DNA of 64,000 nucleotides from Alistipes ihumii AP11 (GCF_025144665.1 NZ_CP102294.1:62001-126000); one strand, 5' to 3'; numbered from the stretch's first letter, positions 61 through 14,172 are shown. Notes: generated by a model from the letters alone, not told the origin. A program made the numbers and translations.

Positions 61-1047
61 ATGACTTATGCAATTTATTTCGGATTGGCTTTCATACTTT
101 TTTTAATTCAAAACTGGATTGGTAGTCGCTCATATTCAAAAGGATATGTGCGATTTTCATTACTTGACGAACAAGATGAAGCCATATCATTCAATTATGC
201 AGTTAAAGTCTTTGGGCCTTTAGTCTATTTGATTTTATGTGTAGCAATACTACAATATTTTCAATTAAACGAATATGTAAGTAATATCATATACGTAATA
301 TATTTTTATATAATACTACGTCTACTAATCATAATCTTATATGGTAGAGGACGCATCGTAAATTGGTGGATAATATCTATTTACTACTTATCAATTATTC
401 TAATAGCATACATATTTTGCCAAACATTTATTGATAAAGTAAATGATATTTTACCAGACTTTTCAGAATTAAAAAATGAGATATGGTTACTCATAATCAT
501 TTTTATATATCAAATTGGCAATAGCACCCAAGAATCTACACCTGCTAATCAAATATATGAACCAACATTAGCTTATCTCCCTGAATTGAAAAATCGAAAG
601 AAAAAATACATACTAAGGAATTATACAAAATTTAGTAAAAAATATTCTTCTTTATTACCAGACAATCCCAGCCTCCAAATTGTAATAATATCCATATTAA
701 TATTTGAAAACTTTAATAAGCCTCAATTTATAAGATTATTAGAAAGAATATGGGTTAGAGTTAGCAATAAACCAGCAACGCAAGGAATTATGCAAATTGC
801 GCATAGCAAGCCGTTATCAGATATCGAAAGTGTACGCATTGGATGTTCCAGTTTAAACCAGAAATATCTTGACAATAAAGACTCATATAAACCATTTCGC
901 CGCACAATAAAATATCATTGCCCTGATAGAAAATATATTCGTCAAATATTATTCATTTCAAAAGCTATTATTGATAATACCACAACTCAAAGGTCATTTA
1001 ATGATTTATATTCAGAAATAACTGACGAGTTCTCTTTATATGATTGA
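61..1047 (+). CDS. Hypothetical multi-pass membrane protein, element cargo
   Basis: I do not recognise a family. The 328-residue product has about five hydrophobic segments in its first half (roughly residues 3-20, 50-66, 74-98, 102-122 and 140-152). A basic, soluble C-terminal half of about 170 residues follows and is probably cytoplasmic. The gene and its surroundings are strongly AT-rich (many TAT, AAA and ATA codons), unlike the GC-rich genes after 1.5 kb. It is the last gene before a partial tRNA-Pro, which marks the end of an integrated element, so it is probably cargo of that element. The ATG at 61 follows an AT-rich leader without a clear ribosome binding site. No catalytic motif is visible. 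The reading frame is convincing; function is unknown. Confidence 0.75.
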   Translation: MTYAIYFGLAFILFLIQNWIGSRSYSKGYVRFSLLDEQDEAISFNYAVKVFGPLVYLILCVAILQYFQLNEYVSNIIYVIYFYIILRLLIIILYGRGRIVNWWIISIYYLSIILIAYIFCQTFIDKVNDILPDFSELKNEIWLLIIIFIYQIGNSTQESTPANQIYEPTLAYLPELKNRKKKYILRNYTKFSKKYSSLLPDNPSLQIVIISILIFENFNKPQFIRLLERIWVRVSNKPATQGIMQIAHSKPLSDIESVRIGCSSLNQKYLDNKDSYKPFRRTIKYHCPDRKYIRQILFISKAIIDNTTTQRSFNDLYSEITDEFSLYD

Positions 1048-3134: not shown

Positions 3135-3212
3135 CGGGGTGTAGCGCAGCCCGGTTAGCGCGCCAGCTTCGGGAGTTGGAGGTCCCGGGTTCGAATCCCG
3201 GTACCCCGACCA
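3135..3212 (+). tRNA. tRNA-Pro(CGG)
   Basis: The cloverleaf is complete: a 7-bp acceptor stem with one G-T pair at its base, D arm, anticodon stem CCAGC/GTTGG with loop TTCGGGA (anticodon CGG, reading CCG), T arm with a perfect CCGGG/CCCGG stem and TTCGAAT loop, discriminator A and an encoded CCA. It has its own promoter upstream and a strong terminator downstream. Confidence 0.95.
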
Positions 3213-4029: not shown

Positions 4030-4037
4030 TATCTTTG
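4030..4037 (+). promoter_or_regulatory. TAnnTTTG promoter element of the btuG-btuB operon
   Basis: TATCTTTG lies just before the start of the cobalamin aptamer, so transcription would begin at its 5' edge. A TTTG at 4011-4014 is the only upstream candidate and its spacing (15 bases) is short. Confidence 0.6.
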
Positions 4038-4044
4038 CGAACGT

Positions 4045-4245
4045 GTCGAGGCTCGATCCCGACGGGCGGACCGTCCGGGAGACGAATGAGGGAACGCCGT
4101 GCGAATCGGCGACAGTTACCGCTGCTGTATGTCTCGGCTTCTTTTCGGTCCGGGTGGCCGGCAGAAGCGAAACGTTCCGGAACGGATGCCACTGGCCTTT
4201 GGGCCGGGAAGGCTTCGGAGCGGAGACGAGTCAGAAGACCGGCCC
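4045..4245 (+). promoter_or_regulatory. Cobalamin riboswitch upstream of btuG-btuB
   Basis: The conserved features of the adenosylcobalamin aptamer are in order. The GGGAA core is at 4090, then GTGCGAATC (4099-4107), CGACAG, and the CCGCTGCTGT segment (4119-4128). The B12 box GCCACTG is at 4188-4194 and the closing GAGTCAGAAGACC element at 4228-4240. A GC-rich hairpin follows between the aptamer and the ATG at 4353 and may act as the expression platform, by terminating or by hiding the translation start. Aptamers of this family bind cobalamin and turn off uptake or synthesis genes. The aptamer is certain; which switch mechanism operates is not. Confidence 0.93.
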
Positions 4246-4352
4246 GGCACGTTTCGATTACAGCCTGCGGTGTATGGGCCGGTAATCCGTCCGGAGCTTC
4301 TCTGCGGACCGGTTTCCCCTGTGGCCGTGCTGTATGATAATGTACGGCGATT

Positions 4353-5426
4353 ATGAAAAGAAGAATCCTTGTCGCGCTATTGGCGTTGCTTCCGGCTTTC
4401 GGGATCGTGACGTCCTGCATGGACTACGGGGCTCGGGCTCCCGAAAAGATCGGTGCGGACGGCCGGGGGCTGTTCATTACCAACGAAGGAAATTTCATGT
4501 ACGGGAACGCTTCGTTGTCCTACTACGACATCGATTCGATGCGGGTGGAGAACGAGGTGTTCCGTCGCACGAATACGATCAAGCTGGGCGATGTGGCCCA
4601 GTCGATGGCGATTCGCAACGGGCTGGGGTATGTTGTCGTCAACAATTCGGGCATCATATTCGTCATCGATCTCGATACGTTCGAGCTCAAGGGAATGATC
4701 GAGGGACTGCTTTCGCCCCGCTACATCCATTTCCTGAGCGACGAAAAGGCCTATGTGACCGACTTGTACGCTTGGCACATCACGATCATCAATCCGAAAA
4801 CGTTCGAAATCACCGGCCGCATCGACGTGAAGATTCCGGGCAAGAATCAGCCGTCGACCGAGCAGATGGTGCAGTACGGCGACTTCGTTTTCACGAACTG
4901 CTGGTCGTACGATAACAAGATACTGGTCATCGACACGCGCACCGACAGCGTCGTCAAGTACATCGAGGTCGGCAAACAACCCACTTCGCTCGCGCTGGAC
5001 CGTTTCGGCAAGATATGGACCGTCACCGACGGCGGTTATCCCGGAAGTCCTTACGGACAGGAGGCGCCGGGGCTCTACCGGATCGACGCCGCCACCCAGC
5101 GGGTCGATAGGGCTTTCATGTTCCGGTTCGGCGACCGGGCGTCCGAGGTTTGTCTGAACGGCACGCGCGATACGCTGTATTTTATCAAGGATCATGTCTG
5201 GCGCATGGACGTCCGCTCCGAATCGCTGCCCGAAAAGCCGTTTCTGGAGAATATGACAGGCAACTACTGGTACGGGCTGACGGTCGATCCCCGGACTTCC
5301 GAGGTCTATCTGGCCGATGCGCTCGATTACGTGCAGCCCGGCTGGGTTTTCCGTTACTCGGCCCGGGGCGGGCTGCTCGACAGTTTTCAAGTCGGCATCA
5401 TCCCCGGGGCTTTCTGTTTTAAATGA
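4353..5426 (+). CDS. btuG: BtuG-like surface cobalamin-binding propeller lipoprotein
   Basis: The 357-residue protein has a lipoprotein signal peptide with the acylated Cys at residue 22. A YncE-like beta-propeller of repeated short strands follows, with recurrent phrases such as IDLDTFE, INPKTFE and IDTRTD that mark successive blades. Established knowledge: BtuG of Bacteroides is a surface seven-bladed propeller that binds B12 with very high affinity and hands it to the TonB-dependent receptor BtuB. The context fits exactly: a cobalamin riboswitch lies upstream and the stop codon overlaps the ATG of a BtuB-like receptor (ATGA at 5423). Cobalamin binding by this particular protein is inferred from family and context. 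It could be a related DUF5074/YncE protein with another partner ligand, but B12 control makes that less likely. Confidence 0.82.
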   Translation: MKRRILVALLALLPAFGIVTSCMDYGARAPEKIGADGRGLFITNEGNFMYGNASLSYYDIDSMRVENEVFRRTNTIKLGDVAQSMAIRNGLGYVVVNNSGIIFVIDLDTFELKGMIEGLLSPRYIHFLSDEKAYVTDLYAWHITIINPKTFEITGRIDVKIPGKNQPSTEQMVQYGDFVFTNCWSYDNKILVIDTRTDSVVKYIEVGKQPTSLALDRFGKIWTVTDGGYPGSPYGQEAPGLYRIDAATQRVDRAFMFRFGDRASEVCLNGTRDTLYFIKDHVWRMDVRSESLPEKPFLENMTGNYWYGLTVDPRTSEVYLADALDYVQPGWVFRYSARGGLLDSFQVGIIPGAFCFK

Positions 5427-7522
5427 CGATCGCTATGAACCGACTGTATAGGACCGCTCTGGCGGCCGCGCTGACGCTGACGACAGCCTCCCTGAGGGCG
5501 GCGAACGGGACCGTCTGCGAGTCTCCCGAGGCGTCCGAGCCTCTTTCCTCGCGCACGATTCGGCTGAAGGAGGCCGTTGTGACCGGGCGGCGTCTGGCCG
5601 ACATCGGAGTGACGAAGATGAATCTCGATTCGGTGGCGCTGCGGCAGAACGTGACCAACAGTTTGGGCGACCTGCTGTCGCAGAGCACGCCGGTATTCAT
5701 CAAGTCGTATGGCCGGGGAACGATGGCGACGGCTTCGTTCCGGGGCACGGCTCCCTCGCATACGCAGGTGACGTGGAACGGCATGAAAATCAATTCGCCC
5801 ATGCTCGGCATGGTCGACTTCTCGCTGATCCCTTCCTATTTCATCGACGAGGCGAGCCTCTATCACGGAGCCGGTTCGGTCGGGGTGTCCGGGGGCGGTT
5901 TGGGGGGGGCGATCACGCTGGGGACCAAACCGCTGGGCGAATCGGGAGCCGGCGTGCACTTCATTCAAGGCATCAGCAGTTTCGACACTTACGACGAGTT
6001 CCTGCGTTTCACCTACGGCACCCGGAAGTTCGAGTCCTCGACCCGCGTATGCTACGTGACCTCCGACAACGATTTCGAGTATCGCAATTACGATAAGTAC
6101 GAGCAGATCGACGGGCAATGGGTCTATCCGATGGAGCGGAACAAGAACTGCTCGTACCGCGATTTTCACTTGTTGCAGGAGTTTTACTATCAGCCCGACG
6201 AGCGGAATCGCTTCGGGCTGGCGGCCTGGGTCACCGATTCGCGGCGCGGCATCCCGATGCTGACGGTGGACTACAAGGAGGAGGGACAGGCCCGCTCGAC
6301 GCAGGACGAGACGACGCTGCGTGCGGTCGCCTCGTGGGACCGTCGCGGCGACGGGCTGAAAATGGGCGCCAAGGCCGGCTATATCTATTCCTACATCTTG
6401 TATCGTTACGACGGGAATCCCGATCCCGACAGCGGCGAGCTGCAGCAGATGATCCACTCGCACAGCCGGATCAACTCCGGCTACGGGCAGTTCTATGCCG
6501 AGTATTATCCTACGCCGAAGTGGGCGTTGACGGCCAATGCGTCGGTCAATGTCCATTCGGTGAGCAGCCTGGACGACCCCGATCTGGGCGGGGCGCAGCC
6601 CGAGGATACGATCCGGCTCGGCTATGACAAGGTAAGGGCCGAAGTGTCGCTGCTCGCTACGGTGAAGTACCGGCCTCATCCGCGTCTGGGGCTGGGTATC
6701 GACCTGCGCGGCGAGAGTTACGGACGGAACCTGACGCCGCTGATTCCGGCCGGGTTCGTCGATTATACGCTGTGGCCCCGGTTCGGCGTCGTGCTCAAGG
6801 CTTCCGTCGCTCGCAATTACCGCTATCCGTCGCTGAACGACCTTTATTTCAAGCCGGGCGGCAACGATTCGCTGAAAACCGAAAAGGGATATACCTACGA
6901 AGGGGGCATGGAGTTCCGCGTGAAGGAGGGAGCATTCGATTTCGGCGGCGAGGTTACCGTCTACAATTCGCATATACGCGACTGGATCGTCTGGCTGCCG
7001 ACATTCAAAGGATTCTGGACGCCGCTCAACGTCAAGAAGGTGCACAGCTACGGCGTCGAGCTCCGGGGCGACTTGTCCGTGAAGCTGGGACGCCGCTGGG
7101 CATTGAACCTGAACGCTTTCTGGGCCAAGACCCGCTCGATCAACTGGGGCGATCCGAAAGAGTGGTACGACCAGTCGATCGGCAAGCAGCTCGTTTATGT
7201 CCCCGAATATTCCTCGGGCGTTACCGGAAGGCTTTCGTGGCGCGGATACGAGCTGACCTACCGGTACAACTATTACAGCGAGCGCTATACGACATCGAGC
7301 AACGAGAAAGGATCCAGTCTCTATTTGCTCAATTCTTACTACATGAACGATCTGGGTCTTGGCAAGACGTTCCGTCTGAGCGTGGGCGAGCTGTCCGTCA
7401 AACTGTGGGTCTACAACCTGTTCGACGAGGAGTACGTTTCGGTGCTTTCCCGGCCGATGCCCGGCCGCAATTTCGGTCTGTTCATAGGCATCACGCCGCG
7501 CTGGGACAAGAAAAGGCGTTAG
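5423..7522 (+). CDS. btuB: BtuB-like TonB-dependent cobalamin receptor
   Basis: This 699-residue outer-membrane receptor has a signal peptide, a TonB-box-like stretch ending in KEAVVTGRR near residue 50, and a plug domain to about residue 180 (SFRGTAPSHTQVTWNG, then GGLGGAITLG). A 22-strand-type barrel follows, ending in an aromatic strand (NFGLFIGITPRW). It imports cobalamin across the outer membrane using TonB energy. It is translationally coupled to the BtuG-like gene by a 4-base overlap and is under the same riboswitch. It could start at 5435 instead (MNRLYRT), which gives a cleaner signal peptide. It lacks the N-terminal carboxypeptidase-like domain of SusC-type receptors, which also argues for a vitamin rather than a glycan receptor. 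Confidence 0.88.
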   Translation: MTIAMNRLYRTALAAALTLTTASLRAANGTVCESPEASEPLSSRTIRLKEAVVTGRRLADIGVTKMNLDSVALRQNVTNSLGDLLSQSTPVFIKSYGRGTMATASFRGTAPSHTQVTWNGMKINSPMLGMVDFSLIPSYFIDEASLYHGAGSVGVSGGGLGGAITLGTKPLGESGAGVHFIQGISSFDTYDEFLRFTYGTRKFESSTRVCYVTSDNDFEYRNYDKYEQIDGQWVYPMERNKNCSYRDFHLLQEFYYQPDERNRFGLAAWVTDSRRGIPMLTVDYKEEGQARSTQDETTLRAVASWDRRGDGLKMGAKAGYIYSYILYRYDGNPDPDSGELQQMIHSHSRINSGYGQFYAEYYPTPKWALTANASVNVHSVSSLDDPDLGGAQPEDTIRLGYDKVRAEVSLLATVKYRPHPRLGLGIDLRGESYGRNLTPLIPAGFVDYTLWPRFGVVLKASVARNYRYPSLNDLYFKPGGNDSLKTEKGYTYEGGMEFRVKEGAFDFGGEVTVYNSHIRDWIVWLPTFKGFWTPLNVKKVHSYGVELRGDLSVKLGRRWALNLNAFWAKTRSINWGDPKEWYDQSIGKQLVYVPEYSSGVTGRLSWRGYELTYRYNYYSERYTTSSNEKGSSLYLLNSYYMNDLGLGKTFRLSVGELSVKLWVYNLFDEEYVSVLSRPMPGRNFGLFIGITPRWDKKRR

Positions 7523-7656
7523 TCGGTCAGCCGTTTCCTTATTTCTTCGTGATTCTTCCGCCGGGGGAGGGCCCGGCGCTCGTCTTGCTGTGTCGTCGGT
7601 GGAGAACTTGGTTACGGACACGTTCGGATACCATCTCGGATATCGTGATATCAGAA

Positions 7657-7689
7657 AAAAACGTTCCGGCCGTCGGCCGGAACGTTTTT
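7657..7689. terminator. Bidirectional terminator between btuB and the LRR lipoprotein
   Basis: A perfect 15-bp stem (7657-7671 with 7675-7689) and 3-base loop has A-runs before and T-runs after it. It therefore works as a terminator for both converging transcripts. Confidence 0.9.
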
Positions 7690-7717
7690 CTCATAAACGG
7701 GCGCTCGTTCCGGTTTC

Positions 7718-9505
7718 CTATTTCTTGACCCAGTCCGTTTCCGCGTCTTTCGTGTAGCAGGGCAGCGTTCCGACTCCGCCCATGAAATAGGTCGCGTCCG
7801 GATCGAAGTCCTGCGGAACATAGATCGTTTCGAGCCGGTTGCCTTCGGATGCGATTCTCGTCAGCGAGAACGGCGACAGGTCCAGTTCTCCGCTCAGCCC
7901 GTTATTGGCGAAGCGCAGTTCCCACAGCCGCGTGCATCCGTCGAGCACGAGGCTTGTCAAGCTGTTGTCGCCGCACAGCACGCCGCCCACTTTCGAGCAA
8001 CCGGTCAGGTCGAGCGACGTCAGTCGGTTGCCGCTGATTTCCAGCCAATAGAGATATTTTTGTTTCGACAGGTCGATGTCCGTCAGCTGATTGTTGTTCA
8101 GATTGATATAGAGATAGGGCAGTCCTGCGTCCTCGTAGCCGCTTCCGGAAGGGCTCGGCGTGTCGAACGTCTTGTCGCCCATGTTGACCGAAGCGATCCG
8201 GTTGTCGGACGCCATCAGGTAGCCGATCTTCGTATTGCTCACGTCGAGCTTGTCGATCCGGTTGTTCTGACAGTTGATCCATACCAGCTCGGCGCTTTGT
8301 GTCAGGTCGAGCGTGCCGATTTCGTTGTAGGCGCAGTAGAGCGTGTCGATCTTCGGGCATTTCGTCACGTCGAGTGCCGACAGCGAGTTATGGCAGCAGT
8401 TGAGTGTCTTCAGTTCGGGATTCCGGCTCAGGTCGAGCGATCCGAGCTTCGGGTTTCCGTATGTGGTCAGCCGTTTGAGTTTCGGGTTGTTCGACACGTC
8501 GAGCTCGTCGAGGCCGAAGCCGGGATAGTTGCTGCTCGCGCAGTTCAGTTCCTCCAGTTCGGGATTACGGCTCAGATCGATATGCTCGATCGGAGTCAGG
8601 TCTCCCCAGCGCGTATGGCAGCACATGCCGAAATCGAGTTTCTTGAGACTCGGGTTGTTCGTCACGTCGAGTTCGCTGATATTCAGGTAGTAGACGCTGA
8701 GCGTTTCGAGCTTCGGATTGTTCGATACGTCGATTTTCGTAATGCCGTCGTCGTCGGTCATGGCGCCGTTGTTCATGCCGCACAGCAAGTGGACCAGTTC
8801 CGTGTTCTGCGATACGTCGAGCGACGTGAGGCGGTTGCTCTCGCAGTTGAGTATCTGCAGATCGCGTAGCGGAGTCACGTCGAGCGATACGATCTGGTTC
8901 GATTTGCACCAGAGGGCCCGGAGTTTCCGGTTGTTCGTCACGTCGAGCGACGTGAGCAGGTTGCTCGTGCAATTGAGACTTTCGAGCTCCGTAAAATATT
9001 CGATGCCCTGGAGCGATTTGATCGACTGGCCGCTCAGTTCCAGCTCGGTGACCAGCGCGGCTTCCCATGCCTGCAGTTTTCCGTCGTTGTTCTTGTCGTA
9101 ATACAGGGTAAGGGCTTGGAACTTGGAGTCCTCGAATTCGACTACTTCGTCGGGATCGTACTCGGCCGTTTCCTCGGAACCCGTTACCGTGCACGTCGCC
9201 TGGACGGCTTCGTTGCTGCGGAGCCGGACCGTGATGATGGCGTCGCCCGTGCTATGCGCCGTTACGTTGCCCGAGTCGTCGACGGTCGCCACTCCGGAAT
9301 CGGAGCTGCTCCATGCGAAGTCCGGCTTTTCCGTCGCGTTTTCGGGCATAACCGTGACGGTCAGTTGCACCGTCTGTCCGATCTGTACGGTTTTCGTCTC
9401 GGTGATCGAGATACCCGTGATCGGAACGTTCGCCCCGTCGTCTTTTGAACAGCCCGCGAGACCTGCCGCGAGCATGAGTGTCAATGCAGTAAGGATTTTA
9501 TTCAT
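7718..9505 (-). CDS. Surface lipoprotein with Ig-like, EF-hand and leucine-rich repeats
   Basis: The 595-residue product has a lipoprotein signal (Cys19 in LAAGLAGC) followed by SKDD, an acidic surface-export signature. A bacterial Ig-like (Big_2) domain spans about residues 28-110 and an EF-hand-like calcium loop residues 137-148 (DKNNDGKLQAWE). About twenty leucine-rich repeats follow, of the pattern LNCxxNxLTSLDVSxNxxL, with period near 21. It is the second gene of a unit headed by a cobalamin riboswitch at 11.45-11.65 kb, 54 bases behind the propeller lipoprotein. Leucine-rich repeats normally bind proteins, so a role in holding a B12-binding protein, host intrinsic factor or a partner receptor is possible, but this is inference. 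I do not know a characterised homologue. The start at 9505 is chosen because it gives the signal peptide directly. Confidence 0.8.
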   Translation of the reverse strand: MNKILTALTLMLAAGLAGCSKDDGANVPITGISITETKTVQIGQTVQLTVTVMPENATEKPDFAWSSSDSGVATVDDSGNVTAHSTGDAIITVRLRSNEAVQATCTVTGSEETAEYDPDEVVEFEDSKFQALTLYYDKNNDGKLQAWEAALVTELELSGQSIKSLQGIEYFTELESLNCTSNLLTSLDVTNNRKLRALWCKSNQIVSLDVTPLRDLQILNCESNRLTSLDVSQNTELVHLLCGMNNGAMTDDDGITKIDVSNNPKLETLSVYYLNISELDVTNNPSLKKLDFGMCCHTRWGDLTPIEHIDLSRNPELEELNCASSNYPGFGLDELDVSNNPKLKRLTTYGNPKLGSLDLSRNPELKTLNCCHNSLSALDVTKCPKIDTLYCAYNEIGTLDLTQSAELVWINCQNNRIDKLDVSNTKIGYLMASDNRIASVNMGDKTFDTPSPSGSGYEDAGLPYLYINLNNNQLTDIDLSKQKYLYWLEISGNRLTSLDLTGCSKVGGVLCGDNSLTSLVLDGCTRLWELRFANNGLSGELDLSPFSLTRIASEGNRLETIYVPQDFDPDATYFMGGVGTLPCYTKDAETDWVKK

Positions 9506-9559
9506 TATCGCAGTGTATTGCATGGTGTCGTTTGCCTTGTGAATGGATGTTCGGTTCCG

Positions 9560-11299
9560 TTATTCGGCGAAGGAGTAGGTCGAAACGATGCCGCCATCGC
9601 CTGCGACTTTGCCGATTCGGGACTCGACGCCGGTCATTCGGGTACCGTCGCTTATACGGTATACTTCCGTATAGACGTGATAGAAATCCGTCGTAGGAAC
9701 GTAGAGCAGGCCATCGGGAGTGGCGGTCATGTATTTGGCCAGCGATCGGCTCGTCGTGGCGAAAACGCTCGTTTTGCCTGTTTGGCAGTCGTACCGGTAA
9801 ATCTGGGTGGCCGAATATCCCTCTTGTTTGATGAACAGCTCGTCGCTTGTCGCCGAGGCGCATGCCATGCAGCCGTACAGGCCGTTGCCCACGCTGACCA
9901 TCGGAAGCCCCTCTATCGCCAACGTCCGCTCGGTCGTCGCATAGGTCTGCGGATCGATCGTCAGTACCGACGCGGAGGAAGTGGCTGTCGTTCCCCACAT
10001 CCAGAACGGATTTGCCGTCTTGTCGATTTTTCCCGCCACTACGGCGTAGAATTTGCCGTCGCGGCCCTTCACGACGTCGCAGACCTGACGGTCCTCGTCC
10101 ACGTCGATCGTCCGGATTACCTGGTCGGTTTCGGTGTCGATCACCGCGATCTTGTTACCGTTGCCGACCATGATGTATTTCCCGTTCTTGACCATGTGCG
10201 AGTAGCACGGGCCGTCGACGCCGACCGCACCGTATGTGGCGTCGATCGTCGTGAACGTATTCATTCCGTCCGGAGCGACCTTCAGCACGCCGATGCCGGT
10301 CTGGTTATTGGCGTTGCTTGAATTATACAGTACATAGAACTTGCTGGTGTCGATTACCTGCAGATTGTAGATTTCCGATGAGGACTGAAGCGTGGCGGGA
10401 TCGAAGCCCTCGGCCGTAATGATTTTTTCCTTCTTGAGCGTCTGGGCGTCGCAGGCGATGACGGCCGAACGGTTGGACTGGTTATTCGGAATCAGGATAT
10501 AGAGCTTGTTGTCGTAAATGCTCAGGTCGTTGATTCCGTTCGTGCTGCCCGTACTTTCGCCGTTGACGGTCGTATACAGGTTATCCTCGTAGAACGTTCC
10601 CTCGCCGCTCGGATCGAAAAAGCCCAGTCCGCCGGCAGTCGAGCCGAATATCCATAACCCGTTCTTGTAGGGACCGTTGAAATTGACCGTAAACGCCGAG
10701 TCTTCCGACGCGATCCCGTCCAGATTGACGGCCGAAACGGTAACGGCCAGCGATCCGCTCCGGTCGGAGACCGGAATGTCCAGCGTCGCGCCGGTAGCGG
10801 TCTCGACCGTGTCGCCGTCGATCGTCCATACGTAGCTCGCTACTTCGACGTTCGATACCTCGACGGTCAGCTTGACAGCCGTTCCCACGGCCACCTCGAC
10901 CGGGTCGCTCAGCGCTTCGTCGTTGCAGGAGATCGACGCGATGACGGGAGCCGGATCGACTACCTGCAACTCTCCGATCTGTTTGGTCGTGACTCCGCCG
11001 TCGGCGTTGTAAAGATTGACCGAAATATCGTACGTGCCGCGCTGCGCAGGCGTGAAGTCGAACCTAACGCTTTCGCTTTCGATTTTTTCGTTGACGATCC
11101 ATTCGTAGCGGTCGATCGCGACGTTTTCGCACTCGACCGAGAAGCCGACGGTCTGGCCCGTCGTGATTTTCATTTGGCCTTCGGTCGCGCCGATGATCTC
11201 GACCTTCGAGACTTCGGGCAGCGGCAGCGAGTCGTCCTTCGAGCACGACGTCAGCACGAGCGCTGCGGCCAGAAAACAGAACAGTAGCTTTTTCATCAT
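9560..11299 (-). CDS. PKD-like/propeller surface lipoprotein under B12 control
   Basis: The 579-residue product has a lipoprotein signal with Cys19 followed by SKDD, so it is probably displayed on the cell surface. Two PKD/Ig-like beta-sandwich domains occupy about residues 30-115 and 118-205. A YncE/DUF5074-type propeller follows (about 210-575), with blade phrases such as VIACDAQTL, VIDTETDQVI, LTIDPQTYAT and YDCQTGK. It is the first gene after the minus-strand cobalamin riboswitch. The propeller resembles the BtuG class, so it is a candidate second cobalamin-binding lipoprotein, longer by its two N-terminal sandwich domains. Direct binding is inference. MM at the N-terminus allows a start at 11299 or 11296. 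Confidence 0.78.
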   Translation of the reverse strand: MMKKLLFCFLAAALVLTSCSKDDSLPLPEVSKVEIIGATEGQMKITTGQTVGFSVECENVAIDRYEWIVNEKIESESVRFDFTPAQRGTYDISVNLYNADGGVTTKQIGELQVVDPAPVIASISCNDEALSDPVEVAVGTAVKLTVEVSNVEVASYVWTIDGDTVETATGATLDIPVSDRSGSLAVTVSAVNLDGIASEDSAFTVNFNGPYKNGLWIFGSTAGGLGFFDPSGEGTFYEDNLYTTVNGESTGSTNGINDLSIYDNKLYILIPNNQSNRSAVIACDAQTLKKEKIITAEGFDPATLQSSSEIYNLQVIDTSKFYVLYNSSNANNQTGIGVLKVAPDGMNTFTTIDATYGAVGVDGPCYSHMVKNGKYIMVGNGNKIAVIDTETDQVIRTIDVDEDRQVCDVVKGRDGKFYAVVAGKIDKTANPFWMWGTTATSSASVLTIDPQTYATTERTLAIEGLPMVSVGNGLYGCMACASATSDELFIKQEGYSATQIYRYDCQTGKTSVFATTSRSLAKYMTATPDGLLYVPTTDFYHVYTEVYRISDGTRMTGVESRIGKVAGDGGIVSTYSFAE

Positions 11300-11451
11300 T
11301 GCTGTAAATTTGGTTAAAAATGATATGGAGATTTTACAGCAAGCGATGTACGGGTGAGAAATACCCTCCGGAAAGATACGCGCCGGCCGGCGCGCGACAT
11401 CGAATGATTACCACCCATAAACCGCAGGCAAGTAAAATCCGTTCGCTCAGG

Positions 11452-11650
11452 CAGGTCTTCTGACTCGTCTCTGTTTTAAAGCCTTCCCGACGACAGCGGC
11501 GCCAGTGACATAAATTTTAAAACTTTTTGACCCTGCAGAAGACGCTTCTTCCGGCGCAGGGCAGAGACATACAGCAGCGGTTACTGTTGCCGATTCGCAC
11601 GGCATTCCCTATTAATTCCTGCTCGGCGAAGCGGAATTCGCCGTCTCGGA
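11452..11650 (-). promoter_or_regulatory. Second cobalamin riboswitch, upstream of the two lipoproteins
   Basis: Read on the minus strand, all landmarks of the cobalamin aptamer appear: GGGAAT core (11604-11609), GTGCGAATCGG, CAACAG, CCGCTGCTGTATGTC, B12 box GTCACTG (11503-11509) and the closing GAGTCAGAAGACC element (11454-11466). It lies about 150 bases upstream of the 11299 start. It is clearly related to the plus-strand copy at 4.1-4.2 kb but not identical, so it is not a recent duplicate. Confidence 0.93.
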
Positions 11651-11663
11651 AACCATTGCGAGG

Positions 11664-11671
11664 CAAAGATA
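11664..11671 (-). promoter_or_regulatory. TAnnTTTG promoter element for the minus riboswitch unit
   Basis: TATCTTTG on the minus strand lies directly upstream of the aptamer. I see no clear upstream TTTG at the expected spacing. Confidence 0.6.
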
Positions 11672-11996
11672 GTATTTTTTCGGAGATATTTCATTTTTAG
11701 TCCGATATATTCTTCTTTTTCGGACAACATGTGCGGCGGCATTCCGTTGCCGGACCGGTCTCGGACCGCTTGTTCGGAAAGGTGGTTTTTTCCCTTTCGG
11801 GTTGCGGAACGTTCGGCGACGGCTGCCCGTGCGATCCCCCTCTCGGCGGTTTCAGGCTTTTGCGCTATACGGAGAAGATTGCGTCCGCCTCGGCGGCAGA
11901 TTAGCACGGGATTTGTACGGAGCGTAGAGACGGCGGAGCCGCCGGTATGACCGGGTGAAAAGTTATCGCTTTCCGCCCGATTGAGCGGAAACGAAT

Positions 11997-14096: not shown

Positions 14097-14098
14097 CG

Positions 14099-14172
<74 letters not shown>

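Follow-up and report, generated by a model that had tools for sequence, protein, structure and literature searches.

We analysed a window of 64,000 nucleotides from Alistipes ihumii AP11 (GCF_025144665.1 NZ_CP102294.1:62001-126000), in which positions 4030-11671 hold a vitamin B12 scavenging locus of a known kind in a new form. The locus is made of two convergent units, each led by a cobalamin riboswitch, and the second unit encodes a PKD-propeller lipoprotein and a leucine-rich repeat (LRR) lipoprotein, the latter being the new element. We consider it probable that this is a BtuBG-type B12 (corrinoid) scavenging locus of Rikenellaceae in which both units are turned off by cobalamin. The plus unit would supply the BtuG lid and the BtuB channel, and the minus unit would add two further surface lipoproteins, a PKD-stalked BtuG/BtuK-like propeller and an internalin-like LRR protein. 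Coordinates are counted from the first letter of the window unless another locus is named.

Two riboswitches around four convergent genes

The features on which this interpretation is built are as follows.

4030-4037, plus strand: TATCTTTG, candidate -7 box (TAnnTTTG, Bacteroidota type) of the btuGB arm, by inspection
4031-4261, plus strand: cobalamin riboswitch aptamer of the btuG leader (Rfam RF00174, 66.1 bits)
4118-4122 and 4267-4271, plus strand: complementary loops L5 (ACCGC) and L13 (GCGGT), kissing loop by inspection
4256-4261 and 4282-4287, plus strand: GATTAC and GTAATC, forming P13 by inspection
4353-5426, plus strand: btuG orthologue, predicted surface lipoprotein with a DUF5074/YncE-type propeller (PF16819, 93 bits; PDB 8bmx_D, E 5e-135)
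5423-7522, plus strand: btuB orthologue, TonB-dependent B12 receptor with Plug and barrel (PDB 8bmx_C, E 4e-205)
7657-7689, both strands: two-way intrinsic terminator hairpin, perfect 15-bp stem with A/T runs on either side
7718-9505, minus strand: lipoprotein (C-SKDD) with Big_2, an EF-hand-like loop and internalin-type LRRs
9560-11299, minus strand: PKD-PKD-DUF5074 propeller lipoprotein (C-SKDD), BtuG/BtuK-type (PF16819, 105 bits; PKD_3, 41 bits)
11577-11581 and 11421-11425, minus strand: complementary loops L5 (ACCGC) and L13 (GCGGT), kissing loop by inspection
11433-11672, minus strand: cobalamin riboswitch aptamer of the lipoprotein arm (RF00174, 68.0 bits)
11664-11671, minus strand: TATCTTTG, candidate -7 box of the lipoprotein arm, by inspection, largely kept in aligned leaders

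A sequence-only reading of this DNA had described two complete, facing cobalamin aptamers and had called for Rfam covariance models to be run on both leaders. Both leaders matched RF00174 over the full model (1-189), well above its gathering score of 31.5 bits, and, judged by covariance model, are genuine cobalamin riboswitches. L13 of the minus leader sits just beyond the Rfam match. TAnCTTTG was found in 7 of 7 aligned plus leaders, and a promoter/terminator scan of the window gave no promoters above chance. Joint switching of the two arms with cobalamin is likely, as would be expected from the sequence.

The same reading had the four genes converge on one bidirectional terminator and took the plus unit for a BtuG-BtuB pair, and both claims held. 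The four open reading frames between the riboswitches are convergent, and the hairpin at 7657-7689 folded at -26 kcal/mol on one strand (z -6.3 against shuffles) and at -29.5 kcal/mol on the other (z -7.7). The scan missed this terminator, as its A/T flanks form part of the stem. It is not universal: in L069, L070 and L073 the stretch separating the stop codons has no long perfect hairpin. The btuG product has the orthologous propeller sequence, a lipobox, an adjoining btuB and a riboswitch upstream, and it retains 4 of the 5 pocket aromatics named for BtuG2 (PMC10404256), W272 being replaced by R. The btuB product, with its Plug and barrel, lies near BtuB2/3.

Recurrence was assessed in 268 Rikenellaceae genomes (22 genera) and in 295 genomes across the order. 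A full-length orthologue of the LRR protein was present in 8 of the 268 genomes, spread over 5 of the 22 genera, and also in a termite-gut metagenome-assembled genome labelled Prevotellaceae (L087); these orthologues were 44-60% identical to the window protein. Order-wide, at E 1e-60, only two LRR matches besides the window's own were obtained, both partial. A cobalamin riboswitch preceded the LRR-orthologue operon in 9/9 genomes, and the propeller gene lay directly upstream of the LRR gene in 8/9. In G134 the two genes are at the ends of different contigs, which fits the same layout split over two contigs. The convergent layout with both riboswitches was found in seven genomes (the window, G028, G057, G067, G098, G018 and L087). 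The search of related genomes for the four-gene layout, which the sequence-only reading had proposed, thus yielded six further genomes and one split over two contigs. This recurrence rules out that the layout is a one-off, and the retention of the layout and of both switches in relatives upholds the earlier view that the minus arm is part of the same B12 system.

The seven genomes also bear on whether the locus is only two independent B12 units lying tail to tail, with no joint apparatus. The minus operon of G058 (L071) has its riboswitch without adjoining btuGB, with btuB about 14 kb off; at L077 and L078 a riboswitch leads a propeller gene that stands alone; and a genome of the same genus without the LRR gene can retain btuB (G049). 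Propeller genes without an LRR gene were found behind cobalamin riboswitches at L015, L016, L019 and L021 as well. However, the seven genomes come from several genera and keep the convergent layout despite differing gene content beyond it. Independent units are an explanation with some weight, yet on balance unlikely.

A proposed leader switch in the minus arm

The leader of the propeller gene carries three elements after the aptamer, and a candidate counterpart was seen in the plus leader.

11432-11439, minus strand: element A, GATTTTAC, immediately downstream of the aptamer core and sharing bases with P13; complementary to B
11330-11342, minus strand: element B, TTGCTGTAAAATC; able to pair with either A or C, but not with the two at once
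11299-11308, minus strand: element C, TTTACAGCAA, ending at the start codon; pairs with B in a helix that covaries across relatives
4324-4348, plus strand: hairpin GCCGTGC/GTACGGC just before the btuG start, candidate expression platform (helix, p 0.20; switch, p 0.08)

In propeller-gene leaders the order after the aptamer was A (GATTTTAC), B (GCTGT[A/G]AAATC) and C (TTTTACAGC), the last ending at the start codon. Over 11 leaders, 88% of the B:C pairs were kept. Five pairs were changed on both sides, a count reached in 1 of 500 shuffles and above slid controls, and 9 cells were changed on both sides, reached in 0 of 500. Clear compensating examples were seen in L071 and L019. Elements A and B paired in 98% of cells; because this helix is nearly invariant and without covariation, covariation neither supports nor opposes it. 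With per-leader shuffles, the A-B-C switch was significant (p <= 0.01) in 8 of 10 propeller leaders. A motif of A plus P13 had 8 matches in the Rikenellaceae genomes, all at the coordinates of propeller-gene leaders, and the reversed control had 0; as the motif was derived from the same leaders, the result speaks for specificity but is no independent test.

A helix that covaries over the start codon, together with a helix that competes with it, suggests that B12 shuts off translation. When cobalamin is absent, A would pair with B and the start codon would be free. Bound cobalamin would fix the L5-L13 contact and P13, and P13 would take up part of A; since P13 overlaps A, B should then become free to pair with C. 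This helix would cover the start codon, and translation would stop. Control of the minus arm by translation rather than termination seems more likely on this evidence. A start-codon switch has good support in the minus arm and weak support in the plus arm of the window; the btuG leader of the termite-gut genome (L087) gave p 0.007 for the switch.

Other features were noted in these leaders. An 18-base GC-rich palindrome, CGCGCGCCGGCCGGCGCG, lies at 11379-11396, between the minus riboswitch and the start codon, and was not seen in aligned relatives. L072 (G067) has tandem cobalamin riboswitches before the propeller gene (10706-10936 and 11114-11326, minus strand), the gene-proximal one being without the usual L13 and element B. 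L087 has a third cobalamin riboswitch (662-865, minus strand), divergent from the propeller operon.

The two minus-arm lipoproteins

The sequence-only reading had claimed two lipoproteins with CSKDD after the lipobox that were not known B12 proteins. The C-SKDD was found in both, whereas the first (9560-11299) is, by its domain and its modelled fold, a member of the BtuG/BtuK-type B12 propeller family. Its DUF5074 domain scored 105 bits against a cut-off of 27.2, and only 2 DUF5074 proteins were found genome-wide, both from this locus. An AlphaFold2 model built from seven orthologues (mean predicted local distance difference test score, pLDDT, 79.5) had BtuK2 (BT1487, 4r5o) as its top Foldseek match (E 4e-14). 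After realignment the nearest structures were BtuG2/BtuG3 (Z about 28, about 20% identity), and further down, among other propellers, came BtuG1 (Z 25), BtuK1 (Z 23.3) and BtuK2 (Z 23.1; 382 residues aligned, with one PKD among them). With the sequence profile, matches extended to BtuG (E 2e-4) and, in its PKD part, to BtuH2; BtuK1 and BtuK2 were absent from that search up to E 1. The protein does not have the C-terminal domain of BtuH, as the sequence match to 7biz is limited to the PKD part and the C-terminal half is a propeller. The domain and the fold matches to BtuG2/3 and BtuK rule out that neither of the two lipoproteins has a relation to B12 proteins. Most likely the propeller is a second corrinoid-handling protein. 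In B. theta, cobalamin is bound by BtuK1 but not by BtuK2 (PMC12751083). As a separate observation, other PKD-bearing proteins of the family lie near cobalamin riboswitches at L025, L026, L029, L032 and L036; these match the PKD half of the propeller protein only and may be BtuH-like.

The second protein (7718-9505), whose start at 9505 was picked for its lipoprotein signal, has an LRR domain of the internalin type, with internalin J as the best PDB sequence match. Its model was confident (mean pLDDT 88.1) and showed LRRs of internalin/YopM-like type. The C terminus has no LPxTG, and a lipobox is at the N terminus. Before the first LRR, residues 137-148 (9062-9097, minus strand) form an EF-hand-like loop, DKNNDGKLQAWE, spaced like the calcium site of an EF-hand. 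All orthologues have the same D, N, D, G and E in this loop, which suggests bound calcium.

The family has many LRR lipoproteins of this general kind, and no function can be read from a fold alone, so the LRR protein could be a passenger, a surface adhesin whose gene happened to end up after that of the propeller and which responds to B12 only because the two share a promoter. In 73 non-orthologous LRR loci (1.14 Mb), the riboswitch pattern, which recovers 34 of 38 known sites, had 0 matches, and Rfam found no cobalamin riboswitch in the 6 of these loci that were also checked with it. Twenty other LRR loci likewise had no riboswitch, but their flanks were just 1.5 kb, which makes them a poor control for operon-distal genes. 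The 0 of 73 and the Rfam control rule out that a riboswitch would be found close to just any LRR protein here. The window protein, in contrast, belongs to a distinct orthologue group whose genes, in five genera, follow the propeller gene in a riboswitch-led operon, and a passenger would hardly be expected to stay in place over a divergence to 44-60% identity. We therefore regard a passenger as improbable. Most likely the LRR protein would be a protein-binding accessory that docks other proteins of the locus or holds a corrinoid-carrying partner. A bolder proposal, that it represents a new functional class in B12 acquisition, is doubtful at present. It would be a surface receptor holding a corrinoid-bearing protein whose cargo is handed to the propeller and then to BtuBG, and its partner could be a host B12 carrier, another bacterium's B12-binding lipoprotein or a vesicle. 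No LRR protein in a B12 locus was found described in the literature, though coverage of subscription papers was limited and absence is not proven; the same literature, with subscription papers thinly covered, held nothing useful on Alistipes B12 loci.

Several points weigh against a cobalamin-switched scavenging locus as set out here. The switch of the btuG leader is borderline in the window (p 0.08) and absent in L069, L070 and L072, and L072 is without element B. The element registers were placed manually, and the leaders share some of their ancestry. Transcription termination has been proposed for the B. theta riboswitches (PMC12751083). Relatives are few (8/268), and the minus arm is therefore dispensable. 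The only apparent ties of the LRR protein to corrinoids are its conserved position and shared regulation. For the propeller, a weak, low-confidence profile alignment shows W194 and Y239 of the BtuG2 pocket replaced or unmatched, and BtuK2, the nearest two-domain fold, did not bind cobalamin in B. theta (PMC12751083); binding by the minus-arm propeller may therefore be absent.

These last two points are also what could be expected if the minus arm served vesicle release or B12 traffic via extracellular vesicles rather than surface capture, with the propeller and the LRR protein as vesicle cargo that does not bind corrinoids. A role in vesicles has been proposed for BtuL and BtuJ in B. theta, where BtuL promotes vesicle release without binding and the non-binding BtuK2 is yet strongly enriched in vesicles (PMC12751083). 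However, a search of the genome for the BtuJ-type DUF4465 (PF14717) gave no match, and we give a vesicle role little credence beside surface capture.

The locus among known B12 systems

The B12 loci of B. thetaiotaomicron, in which BtuB-BtuG occurs with BtuH, BtuJ, BtuK and BtuL (PMC6143338, PMC8941943, PMC10404256, PMC12751083), share with this locus the control by cobalamin riboswitches, the BtuG-BtuB pair and extra surface lipoproteins with PKD and propeller domains. Here, in contrast, the riboswitches face each other around two convergent units, an LRR lipoprotein is encoded and no DUF4465 protein was found, and BtuF- and BtuD-like genes lie in a separate operon with its own cobalamin riboswitch. 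The minus-arm propeller shares with BtuG2/BtuG3 (8bmy, 8okv) a DUF5074-type propeller on a putative surface lipoprotein, but it has two PKD domains in front, the pocket residues named for BtuG2 do not line up with it in the weak profile alignment, and it is encoded opposite to btuB. With BtuK2 and BtuK1 (9s6c) it has in common one PKD plus propeller (in the BtuK2 alignment) and its place as first gene of a riboswitch operon; it carries one PKD more than the aligned part of BtuK2 does, and the sequence profile revealed no link to BtuK. The LRR protein shares the LRR fold of Listeria internalins (InlJ, 3bz5; InlA), InlJ being the top match by sequence and by Foldseek, whereas its N-terminal lipid anchor, its Big_2 domain in front and its EF-hand-like loop, as well as the lack of LPxTG, set it apart.

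Four other cobalamin riboswitches were found in the genome, with target genes named from translations alone. Besides the one leading the BtuF- and BtuD-like genes, one precedes a gene resembling anaerobic ribonucleotide reductases and another, a weak one (35.9 bits), a ThrE-like gene. An unusual target was a biotin carboxylase/carboxyltransferase cluster, also named from translation, behind a riboswitch of 105.7 bits (L080, 8984-9180). Elsewhere in this genome an RT-7 RNA was found (RF03028, 125.5 bits; L082, 11966-12149, minus strand). Outside the locus, the window carries a tRNA-Pro gene (3135-3212, about 0.8 kb away) and a tRNA-Met gene (14098-14172, about 2.4 kb away).

Gut Bacteroidota compete for B12 through a changing set of surface lipoproteins, mostly of unknown role. 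This locus adds to that set an LRR protein with a clear genomic signature. It also offers a second PKD-propeller protein whose corrinoid binding is testable, and a start-codon switch model whose helices can be disrupted and repaired one by one.

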